Of a stretch of 64,000 bases of DNA, positions 16,352 through 19,556 are shown piece after piece; within the stretch, counting starts at the first letter, position 1, and each line of letters starts with the position of its first letter. The notes below the pieces were generated by a model. The model was not told where the DNA came from and did no database searches. It saw only the letters and a program-made list of their open reading frames with translations. Position numbers and translations under genes: made by a program. Location: the NCBI GenBank assembly GCA_002215645.1, contig NGFI01000005.1:1-64000 (forward strand), given 5' to 3'. The DNA is from Gemmatimonadetes bacterium 2013_60CM_65_52 (lineage in GTDB: Bacteria > Gemmatimonadota > Gemmatimonadetes > Gemmatimonadales > Gemmatimonadaceae).

Positions 16352-16705
16352 ATGGCGATCCGCTATTTCGCCGACCCGGACGGCACACGGTGGAGCATGT
16401 GGCCGGTCCAGCCCACGACGTTGACAGGGAGCCATCTCCTGGCGGAGCAGTACCGCGGTGGGTGGCTGTGTTTCGAGAGTGCGCAGACTGGCGAGCGGTA
16501 TCGCCTGTCGCTCGACGAAGTGCCACCGGCGTGGGAATCGTTTTCGGACGACCGCCTCGCTCTCGTGCGGCGCATGGCGGTGCTCACGAGATCTCCGTCC
16601 GTGACGTCGACGCCAATCGCTGCGCACAAGGCGATCATCGAGGAGGAGGCCAGGAATCGCGTGTCGGGGCCGAAGGCAATGGTCGGGGACGATGAAGACC
16701 GTTAG
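16352..16705 (+). CDS. Hypothetical protein, 117 aa
   Basis: This is a small soluble protein that I do not recognise. It starts MAIRYFADPDGTRWSMWPVQP, is rich in Trp and charged residues, and ends in an acidic-basic tail. The ATG at 16352 has GAGGA just upstream, although only 2 nt away. A longer frame back to 16058 runs into the divergent oxidoreductase and is rejected as a start. The middle (YRGGWLCFESAQTGERYRL) has the look of a short beta-meander in which a request or quality domain often sits, but no family can be assigned. About 200 bp upstream has no recognisable gene. Confidence 0.6.
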   Translation: MAIRYFADPDGTRWSMWPVQPTTLTGSHLLAEQYRGGWLCFESAQTGERYRLSLDEVPPAWESFSDDRLALVRRMAVLTRSPSVTSTPIAAHKAIIEEEARNRVSGPKAMVGDDEDR

Positions 16706-16737
16706 TCTCACGGGAACGTCTGCGGAGTCCTCGCTTC

Positions 16738-17238
16738 ATGGATCTCGATACACTCGCGCGCCTGGTCGGGTACCATCACTGGGCAACTGACCGGCTGCTC
16801 GCCGCCGCCGCCGGCCTTCCGGCTGAGCGGCTGGACCGGCCACTCGGCGGCAGCTTCTCGACGGGTCGCGGTCTTCTCACTCACGTCATCGGCGTCGAAC
16901 GGCTCTGGCTCGAGCGATGGAACGGCGGGACTCCCACACAGGTGCCTGACCTCAGCGGCTGCGATACGCCGGCAGATTTTCGAGCCGAGTGGGACGACAT
17001 CAAGGCCGGCCAGCAGCGATTCATGACCGCTCTGTCGGCAGCGGAGCTGACGCGACCGTTCACGTACACGAGCCTTCGCGGCGGGACGTACACATACCCG
17101 CTGGGCGATGTGTTACAACACGTAGTCAATCACGGGACTTATCATCGCGGGCAGATCGCGCATTTTCTCAGGCAGCAGGGCGAGACACCGCCGTCTACGG
17201 ACTACTTGTTGTACCTCGACGAGAAACGTCAACGGTGA
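16738..17238 (+). CDS. DinB-family protein
   Basis: This is a 166-aa cytoplasmic DinB/YfiT-type four-helix bundle. The three expected metal-binding histidine regions are visible: LVGYHHWATDRLL, LLTHVIGVERLWL and LQHVVNHGTYHRGQIAHFLRQQG. The last is the classic C-terminal HxxxH motif. DinB proteins include metal-dependent thiol S-transferases and DNA-damage-induced proteins, with substrate usually unknown. GGAG lies 11 nt before the ATG, a little far. It is one of four DinB-like genes in this window. It may be co-transcribed with the VOC gene 22 nt downstream. Confidence 0.9.
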   Translation: MDLDTLARLVGYHHWATDRLLAAAAGLPAERLDRPLGGSFSTGRGLLTHVIGVERLWLERWNGGTPTQVPDLSGCDTPADFRAEWDDIKAGQQRFMTALSAAELTRPFTYTSLRGGTYTYPLGDVLQHVVNHGTYHRGQIAHFLRQQGETPPSTDYLLYLDEKRQR

Positions 17239-17260
17239 ACCGCTACCACTGGAGACTCGG

Positions 17261-17668
17261 ATGAAGGCGTTTCAGCCGTACCTCAACTTCGACGGCAGCA
17301 CGCGCGACGCGATGACGTTCTACACCGAGTGCTTCGGCGGCGACCTGTACATGATGACGTTCGCGGAGGCCAATACTCCCGTGCCTCCCGGCAATGAGAA
17401 CCGCGTCATGCACGCTCGCCTTGCGAGTGGCAACGGCATCCTCATGGCCTCCGATAGCATGCCGGGCAAAGCCATTACGCAGGGCAACAACGTGTGGGTG
17501 AACGTCGATTGCGAGAGCGTCGAAGAGATCGATCGCCTGTTTGCCGCAATGGCCAGGGGCGGCACCGTCGTGATGCCGCTTGCCGACCAGTTCTGGGACG
17601 CCCGGTTCGGCATGCTCACGGACAAGTTCGGCATCAACTGGATGTTCAACTGCCAGCTGAAGAAGTAG
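17261..17668 (+). CDS. VOC-family protein, PhnB-like
   Basis: This is a 135-aa glyoxalase/bleomycin-resistance fold protein of the PhnB (DUF1338/3-demethylubiquinone-methyltransferase-like) group. The opening MKAFQPYLNFDGSTRDAMTFY and the following CFGGDL are typical. Later blocks are MHARLASGNGILMASD, the VNVDCESVEEIDRLFAAMARGG helix and DQFWDARFGMLTDKFGINWMFNC. These proteins usually act as small binding or isomerase-like proteins, and no ligand is known. GGAG lies 6 nt before the ATG. A short C-run/G-run hairpin (17673-17686) follows the stop. Confidence 0.9.
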   Translation: MKAFQPYLNFDGSTRDAMTFYTECFGGDLYMMTFAEANTPVPPGNENRVMHARLASGNGILMASDSMPGKAITQGNNVWVNVDCESVEEIDRLFAAMARGGTVVMPLADQFWDARFGMLTDKFGINWMFNCQLKK

Positions 17669-17734
17669 AACTCCCCCCCGAAGGGGTCCATCGCTTGCAG
17701 TTGATCGGGCCAGACACCTGGAGGAGGCCCAGCA

Positions 17735-17887
17735 ATGATTCGCAAGCTTCGCGTCGGCGGCTACCGGCTCTACTCGCGCAAGAAGGATCCGAAGACAGGC
17801 AAACGGCGCAACCTCGGCACGTTCAAGTCGCGCGCGGCGGCTGAGAAGCACGAACGTGCCGTGCAGTACTTCAAGCACGGGGGCTGA
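17735..17887 (+). CDS. Small basic protein of 50 aa, unknown function
   Basis: A short gene with an unusually strong ribosome-binding site, GGAGGAGG, about 7 nt before the ATG. The product is very basic and opens MIRKLRVGGYRLYSRKK, followed by a DPKTGKRRNLG turn and an Ala/Lys/Glu helix (SRAAAEKHERAVQYF). I recall closely similar 45-50 aa proteins in unrelated bacteria, which supports it being real. The charge and size suggest nucleic-acid binding, but that is inference. It lies between the VOC gene and the membrane acyltransferase-like gene. Confidence 0.75.
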   Translation: MIRKLRVGGYRLYSRKKDPKTGKRRNLGTFKSRAAAEKHERAVQYFKHGG

Positions 17888-17963
17888 GCCACTCGCTACT
17901 GCGAGACATTGCCCATTCCGCCCGGGGACGCGAAGATGGTGGCGACCCCGGCAAGGCGGAAAC

Positions 17964-19151
17964 ATGGGCGTGAGCGCGAACGACGAGACTCTCACCGGCT
18001 TCCAACCACAGAGCGACGCAAGCTCCCGAGCGGGGCGCGTCAACTCGCTCGACATCGTCCGCGGGATCATCATGATCCTCATGGCCGTGGATCATGTCCG
18101 GGTGTACGCGGGCGTTCCGGCCGGCGGGTCCACGCCCGGCGTCTTCTTCACGCGGTGGATCACACATTTCTCCGCGCCCGGGTTCGCGTTCCTCGCCGGC
18201 ACCGGAGCGTTTCTCTATGGGCGACGCCTCGCCACCTCGGGCGCGCTCTCGCGCTTCCTTCTGGTGCGCGGGATCATGCTCGTGTTGCTCGAGCTCACCG
18301 TCATCCGCCTGGCATGGACGTTCAACACGGACTTCGCGCACTACAATCTCGCGGGAGTCATCTGGATGCTCGGATGGTGCATGATCCTGATGGCTGCGCT
18401 CGTGCACCTTCCGATGACGGCCATCGGAGTGATCGGCGCGTTGATCGTTCTCGGGCAACCCGTGTTCGATCCCATCGCAAGGACATTACCAGGTCCGATC
18501 GGAAGCTTCCTGTATCTTGGCGGTGTGACGCAGATTGCCGGCCTCCCGATCGGGGTGCTGTACGTCATCGTGCCGTGGATCGGCGTGATGGCGATGGGCT
18601 ACTGGTTCGGAACGGTGATCACGCTCGAACCGGAGGCGCGGCGACGCCGGTGCTTCCGGATGGGACTGGGTGCCACCGCAGCGTTCCTGCTCATTGCGAC
18701 GGGGCTTGCCGTGCTCGGCCCGCACGGAGACAACGGGCCGCCGTTGTTCGTCCGCATCCTCAATCAGAGAAAGTATCCGGCCTCGCCGCTCTTTCTCCTG
18801 ATGACGTTGGGTCCGATCATCGCGTTCATTCCCCTCGCGGAGCGCATGAAAGGGGCGGTGAGCGACTTCGTGGCGACGTTCGGCCGCGTGCCACTCTTCT
18901 ACTACCTGCTGCACATCCCGCTCATTCATGCTCTCGCGATCGTGGTATCGCTGATCCGCGAAGGTGCGGTCAACCCGTGGCTGTTCGGCAACCATCCATT
19001 CGACCCGCCGCCCGTGCCACCGGGTTACCGATGGAGCCTGGGCCTGCTGTACCTCGTCTTCGCCGCCGCAATCGCGATCCTGTACCTCCCCTGTCGCTGG
19101 TATGCGATGCGGAAGGGAACCGCCCCGGCGCCCTGGATGAAATACCTCTGA
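17964..19151 (+). CDS. Multi-pass membrane protein, DUF1624 / heparan-glucosaminide acetyltransferase-like
   Basis: This is a 395-aa inner-membrane protein with about ten hydrophobic segments. The first (SLDIVRGIIMILMAVDHVRVY) is the hallmark of DUF1624 and related heparan-alpha-glucosaminide N-acetyltransferase-type proteins, in which an Asp-His pair (MAVDHVR) is central. Members are thought to move acyl groups across the membrane to a periplasmic acceptor. The C-terminal part has further segments around FYYLLHIPLIHALAIVVS and LGLLYLVFAAAIAILYLPC. The start at 17964 follows AAGGCGG. The acceptor is unknown. Confidence 0.85.
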   Translation: MGVSANDETLTGFQPQSDASSRAGRVNSLDIVRGIIMILMAVDHVRVYAGVPAGGSTPGVFFTRWITHFSAPGFAFLAGTGAFLYGRRLATSGALSRFLLVRGIMLVLLELTVIRLAWTFNTDFAHYNLAGVIWMLGWCMILMAALVHLPMTAIGVIGALIVLGQPVFDPIARTLPGPIGSFLYLGGVTQIAGLPIGVLYVIVPWIGVMAMGYWFGTVITLEPEARRRRCFRMGLGATAAFLLIATGLAVLGPHGDNGPPLFVRILNQRKYPASPLFLLMTLGPIIAFIPLAERMKGAVSDFVATFGRVPLFYYLLHIPLIHALAIVVSLIREGAVNPWLFGNHPFDPPPVPPGYRWSLGLLYLVFAAAIAILYLPCRWYAMRKGTAPAPWMKYL

Positions 19152-19274
19152 CTGAAACATTCGCATGGCGCGTGAATTCGATCCAGCGCGCACTCTTCGG
19201 ATGACGTCCGCTGCACTGACACGTGCACCTTCCACGAGCGCAGCACACCGATACCCACTCCGAAGGAGGACACC

Positions 19275-19556
19275 GTGACGGACGAACGGATGGACGAGAT
19301 TCTCGATGCGCTCGAGCGTGGACGGCAGCGCGCCACCTACGGCGCCGTCGCGGCACTCCTTGGCAGGGCGCCGAGGACGTTGATGAGTGGACGGGAGCGA
19401 GATCAGCGGCATTCGTGGATCGTAAGCCGCAAGACTGGCGAGCCGACGGGCTACGAGCCGGACCAGCTTCACCCGGAGCTTCGCGCCAACGTTCACGTCA
19501 TCGATGCGCGGCAGGAACTCGAGGAATGGTTGGCCGGCGTTGGCGCGACGGCCTGA
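19275..19556 (+). CDS. Conserved small protein, 93 aa, unknown
   Basis: The GTG start at 19275 is set by a strong AAGGAGGA about 4-6 nt upstream. The protein has an N-terminal helical part (ILDALERGRQRATYGAVAALLG) followed by APRTLMSGRERDQRHSWIVS and TGYEPDQLHPELRAN. The YGAVAALLGR segment looks like a small helix-turn-helix, similar in flavour to the DNA-binding end of alkyltransferase-like proteins, though the PCHR active-site motif is absent. I recall similar uncharacterised proteins elsewhere. No signal or membrane segment is present. It may be transcribed with the DinB-like gene at 19621. Confidence 0.7.
   Translation: MTDERMDEILDALERGRQRATYGAVAALLGRAPRTLMSGRERDQRHSWIVSRKTGEPTGYEPDQLHPELRANVHVIDARQELEEWLAGVGATA

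Follow-up and report, generated by a model that had tools for sequence, protein, structure and literature searches.

At positions 17735..17887 of the plus strand, the window examined here (the whole stretch of 64,000 nucleotides) contains the coding sequence, stop codon included, of a small basic protein of 50 residues, MIRKLRVGGYRLYSRKKDPKTGKRRNLGTFKSRAAAEKHERAVQYFKHGG, which begins with an ATG at 17735 and whose last stop base is 17887; its sequence, homologues and structural model are consistent with a stand-alone, predicted β-β-β-α domain. A first-pass annotation of this DNA had described a basic protein of this length with a very strong ribosome-binding site about 7 nt upstream, and both descriptions hold. 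The open reading frame (ORF) is confirmed, with 16 lysines and arginines (eight of each) against three acidic residues (one aspartate, two glutamates) and a pI of 11.35, and GGAGGAGG is present at 17720..17727 on the plus strand, 7 nt 5′ of the ATG. The strength of this site is local to the window locus and is not conserved among homologues, since any RBS-like string is found at 80 of 133 cellular sites (81 of 135 including two viral rows), and GGAGG or AGGAG at 52 (also 52 with the viral rows). The gene is present in one copy in its own genome.

Upstream lies a gene for a glyoxalase/VOC protein (3-dmu-9_3-mt by Pfam; 17261..17668, plus strand), and downstream an ORF for an HGSNAT_cat-type acyltransferase (Pfam; 17856..19151, plus strand), whose first listed start overlaps the small gene; an in-frame ATG at 17964 seems the likelier start. 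A DinB protein is also among the window neighbours. Directly 3′ of the VOC gene, a C7-GAA-G4 hairpin occupies 17673–17686 and scored as terminator-like on the minus strand only (one found; shuffles mean 0.4, s.d. 0.7). No sigma-70-like promoter was found in 17560–18020 and no Rfam match within 16500–19500, and the 76-nt leader of the small gene folds no better than shuffled sequences (z 1.28).

Across phyla, no conserved neighbourhood was seen. Guilt by association through an operon was rejected, as only 2 of 49 neighbour clusters with at least two loci span two phyla (L007 and L024 with L060; L032 with L040); since their distances and sides differ, we take them for coincidences or for soil genes that are loosely shared. 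A Pfam scan of the first 300 residues of each neighbour, using a simple ORF heuristic and leaving out 17 near-duplicate loci, found each family at no more than 3 of 62 upstream and 2 of 64 downstream neighbours, among the first 25 of the 47 and of the 55 families listed, and neither set lends support to a regulatory role. A mobile cassette was likewise rejected: all-against-all comparison of the 300-nt flanks gave 259 matches, and none of the 128 that could be judged by phylum joins two phyla; among these 128, no cassette, attC-like flank or terminal repeat common to different phyla was seen.

A short reading frame under strong purifying selection

We extracted 139 homologous reading frames, 133 of them cellular (seven being the same locus seen twice), having left out L125 (a weak match with stops), L126 (no hit) and L127 (a neighbouring stretch of L122). 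Aligned from start to stop, the cellular frames comprise 49 codons in 101 cases and 50 codons in 32; in G305 and G309 the start is fixed, because the stop-to-stop frames there are only 50 codons long. Over divergence bins, pN/pS (computed on 135 rows, two of them viral) was ~0.03–0.20, with 0.03 for near relatives and ~0.2 near synonymous saturation. Among 107 distinct cellular sequences, the invariant residues include R24, N26, L27, T29, F30, A36, H39, E40 and K47, so that the core singled out in the first-pass annotation as conserved-looking is indeed conserved. R3, R15, R24 and R25 are each arginine or lysine in all 107 sequences, and the helix residues H39, E40, R41, Q44 and K47 are as frozen as the arginines of the sheet.

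Ribosomal protein S12 served as a yardstick in 13 carriers of various phyla, drawn from the best 80 relatives so that identities lean high; identity to the window protein was 82–94% against 72–83% for S12, and higher in 13 of 13 genomes, all of which carry a single copy. With synonymous sites near saturation, such identity indicates that the copies diverged long ago and have been held under strong constraint, as opposed to having been copied recently. The 50-residue ORF is a real coding gene under very strong purifying selection. That it is a chance ORF or a conserved non-coding element, for which the high GC content of the region and its many spurious ORFs might speak, is close to inconceivable given the pN/pS of 0.03–0.20, the near-saturated synonymous sites, the constant length, the lack of flank matches between loci assignable to different phyla and the lack of an Rfam match.

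Distribution in bacteria and phages

At least 387 relatives were confirmed among at least 588 pattern-matched stretches in genome_contigs. The best 80 of these show 80–94% identity and fall, by record title, into seven phyla (Pseudomonadota, Gemmatimonadota, Acidobacteriota, Verrucomicrobiota, Planctomycetota, Bacteroidota and Fibrobacterota), with two rows lacking a phylum. The statement in the first-pass annotation that near-identical small proteins occur in distant taxa is thus borne out, and relatives extend far beyond the genus. Many of the best 80 are metagenome-assembled genomes, and the Planctomycetota, Bacteroidota and Fibrobacterota, with one or two rows each, may include misbinned contigs; isolates among the 80 belong to Bradyrhizobium, Taklimakanibacter, Aestuariivirga, Sphingomonas and Afipia. 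The gene is also carried by 14 plasmid records from Rhizobium, Bradyrhizobium and Gemmatirosa, including a 1.04-Mb plasmid of Gemmatirosa kalamazoonensis, and in all three plasmid records with gene tables covering the homologue it is annotated as a hypothetical protein.

Carriage, each count including the known carrier on which the sample was centred and each group being named after the record title of that carrier, is patchy. The gene was detected in 40 of 298 Gemmatimonadota genomes and 21 of 119 genera (the window's own genome counted; 38 longer matches besides the window's own at 72–90% identity, two carriers having partial matches only), in 18 of 199 Acidobacteriota, in 20 of 398 Pseudomonadota (two of the 20 matches being weak, E 2.9e-4 and 7.6e-4), in 3 of 240 Verrucomicrobiota and in 2 of 296 Bacteroidota genomes sampled. 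Within Bradyrhizobium, the genus of G298, it was found in 117 of 146 genomes, three of these copies (G1508, G1488, G1535) being broken-looking or partial; elsewhere, the copy of G743 looks frameshifted and that of G732 is partial with a stop. Judged by its patchy carriage and decayed copies, the gene is dispensable in the long run; one genus has it almost as a core gene, and elsewhere its occurrence is scattered. The description of the protein as widespread accordingly stands as regards its span of seven phyla and its frequency in Bradyrhizobium, but not as regards its frequency in general, since it is a patchy accessory gene in ~1–13% of sampled genomes in five phyla. Most carriers have one copy, the exceptions being G016 (two), G762 (three) and G584 (two). 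In G584, a member of the Pseudomonadota, the two loci (L122 and L127) encode an identical aligned protein and lie ~1.1 kb apart (C6:79335-80618).

On the gene tree, phylum changes number 18, where the least possible is 6 and shuffled labels give a mean of 35.1; phylum labels are thus partly clustered, and the distribution is therefore not all due to transfer. With 147 columns the tree has little resolution (4 of 78 inner branches are starred), so we argue for transfer from patchiness and identity, and not from the tree. High identity and patchiness together suggest ancient horizontal transfer between soil bacteria, followed by vertical retention.

Relatives are also found in phages. Searches of IMG/VR returned 6 loci with a single-protein query and 42 with an alignment query (overlapping sets), at 47–70% identity and with one match per virus record in each of 18 examined. 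Read from the first possible start, the domain lies inside or at the end of a longer frame in 29 of 32 loci drawn; eight fused proteins were scanned, of which three contain a cytidylyltransferase-like domain, one an HD domain and one a metalloprotease-like domain (below the Pfam cut-off, PHROG E 1.6e-5). A free-standing version of 45–46 residues is present in three loci (L171, L172 and L173). In two of them (L171:3980-4120 and L173:3980-4117) the small gene is placed between the genes for the small and large terminase subunits (PHROG), one other ORF separates it from the small-subunit gene, and its stop codon overlaps a GTG at which the large subunit could start; this AP2-like gene is possibly a packaging accessory. 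In L087, a 54-residue version lies downstream of the portal gene, and scaffold-like and major-head-like genes come after it.

More distant versions were detected as well. One of these occupies the N-terminal ~44 residues of a 466–470-residue protein encoded by Klebsiella and Salmonella phages (tblastn E 5e-4 to 4e-3 among the first 40 of 240 rows; hhalign probability 91%). Records name this protein a prohead/procapsid protease or a core, coat or capsid protein, and mostly hypothetical; it belongs to phrog_760 (function unassigned), with weak matches to head maturation proteases (E 0.0007–0.009). Such phrog_760 proteins are encoded at L196:3501-4901 (Klebsiella phage) and L199:3501-4913 (Salmonella phage). 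In Klebsiella phage ZCKp20p, the gene is followed by two whose annotations are capsid decoration and major capsid protein, and in the Salmonella phage record the surrounding genes are annotated as hypothetical. RB43 gp57B (RNA-ligase-type by PHROG; L198:1964-2587) matches the helix part of the domain with its C-terminal 26 residues, and weak matches of the gp57B type (E 0.03–1) occur in many related Klebsiella, Enterobacter and Cronobacter phages. Aeromonas phage 1233 has an unannotated 43-residue copy after an uncharacterised small gene, and four more distant phage versions gave hhalign probabilities of 91–98%. In five further loci (L143:3986-4927, L144, L146, L147 and L150), the domain is N-terminal in uncharacterised phage proteins of 247–313 residues, preceded by a leader of 5–6 residues that ends in alanine. 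Structure searches of BFVD returned an unnamed phage protein first (64% identity, E 3.5e-4), then cytidyltransferase-like and DUF5824 phage proteins, with a phage AP2/ERF protein sixth (E 0.19).

The phage modules (L082–L087, L143–L184, RB43 gp57B and the start of phrog_760) share a related helix motif with the cellular protein, but they are mostly fused, often have a shorter hairpin between strands 2 and 3, and are less basic. Net charge is +6 to +17 in cellular members (mean +12.4), compared with a mean of +7.6 over 29 viral rows; the free-standing copies of L172 and L171 reach +15 and +16, while the charge is +2 in L160 and 0 in the module that starts the head-protease-like protein. With so little positive charge on some of the phage relatives, binding to DNA is not necessarily a function common to all relatives. 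Several phage copies, though not all, sit in head or packaging blocks.

Predicted fold and remote kinship

An AlphaFold2 model built from a 65-row alignment (pLDDT 90.8) has a β-β-β-α order, with predicted strands at residues 2–4 (17738..17746), 10–17 (YRLYSRKK; 17762..17785) and 24–30 (RRNLGTF; 17804..17824) and a predicted helix at residues 33–49 (17831..17881), all on the plus strand. The helix holds the motif AA-x2-HER-x-VQYFK, the part most common to cellular and phage relatives. In the predicted model a three-stranded sheet is packed on one helix, as in AP2 domains. The top match in a Foldseek search of the PDB was AtERF1 with GCC-box DNA (1gcc; probability 0.98, TMq 0.69, E 0.35), no match reaching an E value of 0.001 or better. 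With VIA-align, the best AP2 rows were TEM1 (Z 5.4, rmsd 2.4, 46 aligned), WRI1 (Z 4.9, 2.9, 48) and 1gcc (Z 4.8, 3.1, 49), further AP2 rows scoring lower (7et5 3.6, 5wx9 3.1, 6sy0 2.6), and the N-terminal domain of lambda Int (1kjk) gave Z 4.1 (rmsd 3.0, 44 aligned). Structure alone is not decisive, because the unrelated lipid-binding protein 1pzx (Z 5.2) and the UPF0339 protein 3bid (Z 4.9) are level with the best AP2 rows, and a Z of ~5 is weak.

Sequence evidence separates the candidate folds better than structure does. The sole match in a PDB sequence search at E ≤ 10 was the AP2 protein ERF096 (E 0.39). The window protein reached no Pfam cut-off, its best sub-threshold matches being integrase arm domains (PF09003, lambda type, and PF14657; Arm-DNA-bind_1 14.8 bits against a cut-off of 22, Arm-DNA-bind_4 9.5 against 22.3); neither AP2 (PF00847, gathering threshold 33.3 bits) nor NCBIfam gave a row at E ≤ 10, while in PHROG the lowest E value was 0.13. 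When 65 members were scanned at E ≤ 1, the highest Pfam counts were for Arm-DNA-bind_1 (14), Arm-DNA-bind_4 (13) and AP2 (9), all weak, with best E values of 0.0025–0.003 (AP2 0.0026), and most members match none of the three; against PHROG, 29 of the 65 matched integrases and 10 HNH endonucleases. Profile comparison by hhalign with five AP2 domains from four proteins scored 26.5 over 17 columns (probability 71.7%; 40 column shuffles ≤12.8), and with the lambda Int N-domain 18.1 over 35 columns (probability 10.3%; 100 shuffles ≤17.4). All in all, the sequence-based and structure-based searches give weak but concordant pointers to the AP2/ERF and integrase-arm DNA-binding domains. PF00847 detected no true AP2 protein in the window genome, a plant AP2 query had no match in phages at E ≤ 1e-3, and the motif strings of the family were found in no paper of the open-licence PMC collection searched.

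Membership of the UPF0339/YegP (DUF1508) proteins was rejected. These are also small β-β-β-α folds and superpose on the model (3bid Z 4.9, rmsd 2.7, 48 aligned; 2k7i Z 4.1, 2.7, 48), but DUF1508 matched none of the 65 members at E ≤ 1, and the hhalign score of 9.0 is at shuffle level, equalled or beaten by 14 of 40 shuffles, which makes such kinship highly improbable.

Besides the predicted strand and helix order, the family shares an LGTF-x-S/T-x2-AA motif with AP2/ERF domains (PF00847; 1gcc, ERF096 5wx9, TEM1 7et4, WRI1 7wq5), and differs from them in being bacterial, stand-alone and 49–50 residues long. For AtERF1, PMC6631176 names R150, R152, W154, E160, R162, R170 and W172 as residues for specific binding to the GCC box. 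R162 aligns with R15 of the family (arginine in 99 and lysine in 8 of 107 sequences), R170 with R24 (107 of 107) and T175 with T29, whereas W172 corresponds to N26 (107 of 107) and E160 to Y13. The counterpart of R150 would be R3, but only on the assumption that the VIA-align range contains no gap before strand 2; no basic residue or tryptophan stands in for R152 and W154, and the YRG element that precedes strand 1 in AP2 domains is absent from the family, which starts at strand 1. By these alignments, the predicted sheet would keep two or three of the AP2 contact arginines. Lambda Int aligns with the DP-x-TGK-x3-LG stretch of the window protein, but unlike integrases the family has no tyrosine-recombinase core after the domain, because the frame ends at 49–50 codons in all 133 cellular rows; HNH-AP2 homing endonucleases carry an HNH nuclease domain before AP2, whereas the 50-residue protein has no further domain. 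As the Pfam cut-offs are not reached and flanking elements are missing, the protein should not be filed as a member of either the AP2 or the integrase-arm family.

Candidate roles of the protein

We consider it about an even chance (probability ~0.5) that the gene product is a free-standing, strongly basic DNA-binding protein that is AP2-like and has its kin in a phage module. On this model, the 50 residues would make up a β-β-β-α domain of AP2/ERF and integrase-arm type, minimal and stand-alone, with its basic three-stranded sheet lying in the major groove of double-stranded DNA, as in AtERF1; R15, R24 and perhaps R3 would occupy base-contacting positions, and the arginine- and lysine-rich hairpin between strands 2 and 3 would rest on the DNA backbone. 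Binding to double-stranded DNA is what we infer from the model, and the test of nucleic-acid binding proposed in the first-pass annotation fits the AP2/integrase-arm-like predicted fold. The protein could then act as a small DNA-binding regulator or an architectural protein. DNA binding leaves the conserved face of the helix unaccounted for, and the frozen residues H39, E40, R41, Q44 and K47 suggest a second interaction; the invariant outer helix residues (HER..Q.FK) may serve dimerisation or a partner. The gene probably shares its descent with a module of tailed phages and, by our inference, would have come from phages to bacteria rather than the other way; it would have spread among soil bacteria long ago, and then been kept mostly in single copy under purifying selection.

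The same helix could instead be the centre of the function. The protein would then be a protein–protein adaptor whose HER-x-VQYFKH motif docks on a conserved partner, tag-like in the phage fusions, with the basic sheet secondary. Across relatives the helix motif is the best-kept part, even in modules with a shortened basic hairpin or no net charge, and the fusion partners of the module in phages are unrelated proteins (cytidylyltransferase-like, HD, RNA-ligase-type gp57B and head-protease-like). However, in cellular members R3, R15, R24 and R25 are conserved as strongly as the helix (R or K in 107 of 107 each) and the net charge is +6 to +17, and we regard an adaptor role as unlikely.

Rather improbable, in our view, is an RNA or ribosome binder, in which two near-frozen faces would reflect a target that hardly varies, for example rRNA or tRNA. 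In favour of such a binder are an identity to the window copy that exceeds the S12 value in all 13 genomes compared (carriers taken from the best hits), the character of a small basic single-domain protein with a pI of 11.35, and ribosomal chains among the weak structure rows (9g6k_UG Z 4.1, 9qf4_Bk Z 3.0). Against it, carriage is patchy and loss is tolerated, as the broken-looking copies of G743, G732, G1508, G1488 and G1535 indicate, the matches at the sequence level are to DNA-binding families, and several phage relatives are located in head and packaging blocks.

It is very unlikely, though conceivable, that soil bacteria have domesticated a phage head or packaging module that interferes with phage assembly, the domesticated module competing with the phage's own copy at phage DNA, the terminase or the prohead. 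A parallel is CapR, described in PMC10448857 as a capsid repressor of a satellite that derives from the DNA-binding domain of a phage nuclease. If true, such interference would explain the patchy carriage, the horizontal spread, the strong constraint and the lack of operon context.

The combination of features is unusual for a protein of 49–50 residues: its conservation between phyla is at least S12-like (13 genomes, best hits), yet few of the sampled species carry the gene. If the preferred reading of a DNA-binding protein is true, this would be a minimal stand-alone bacterial AP2-like protein, and it would bear on how the AP2/integrase-arm fold has moved between phages, bacteria and plants.
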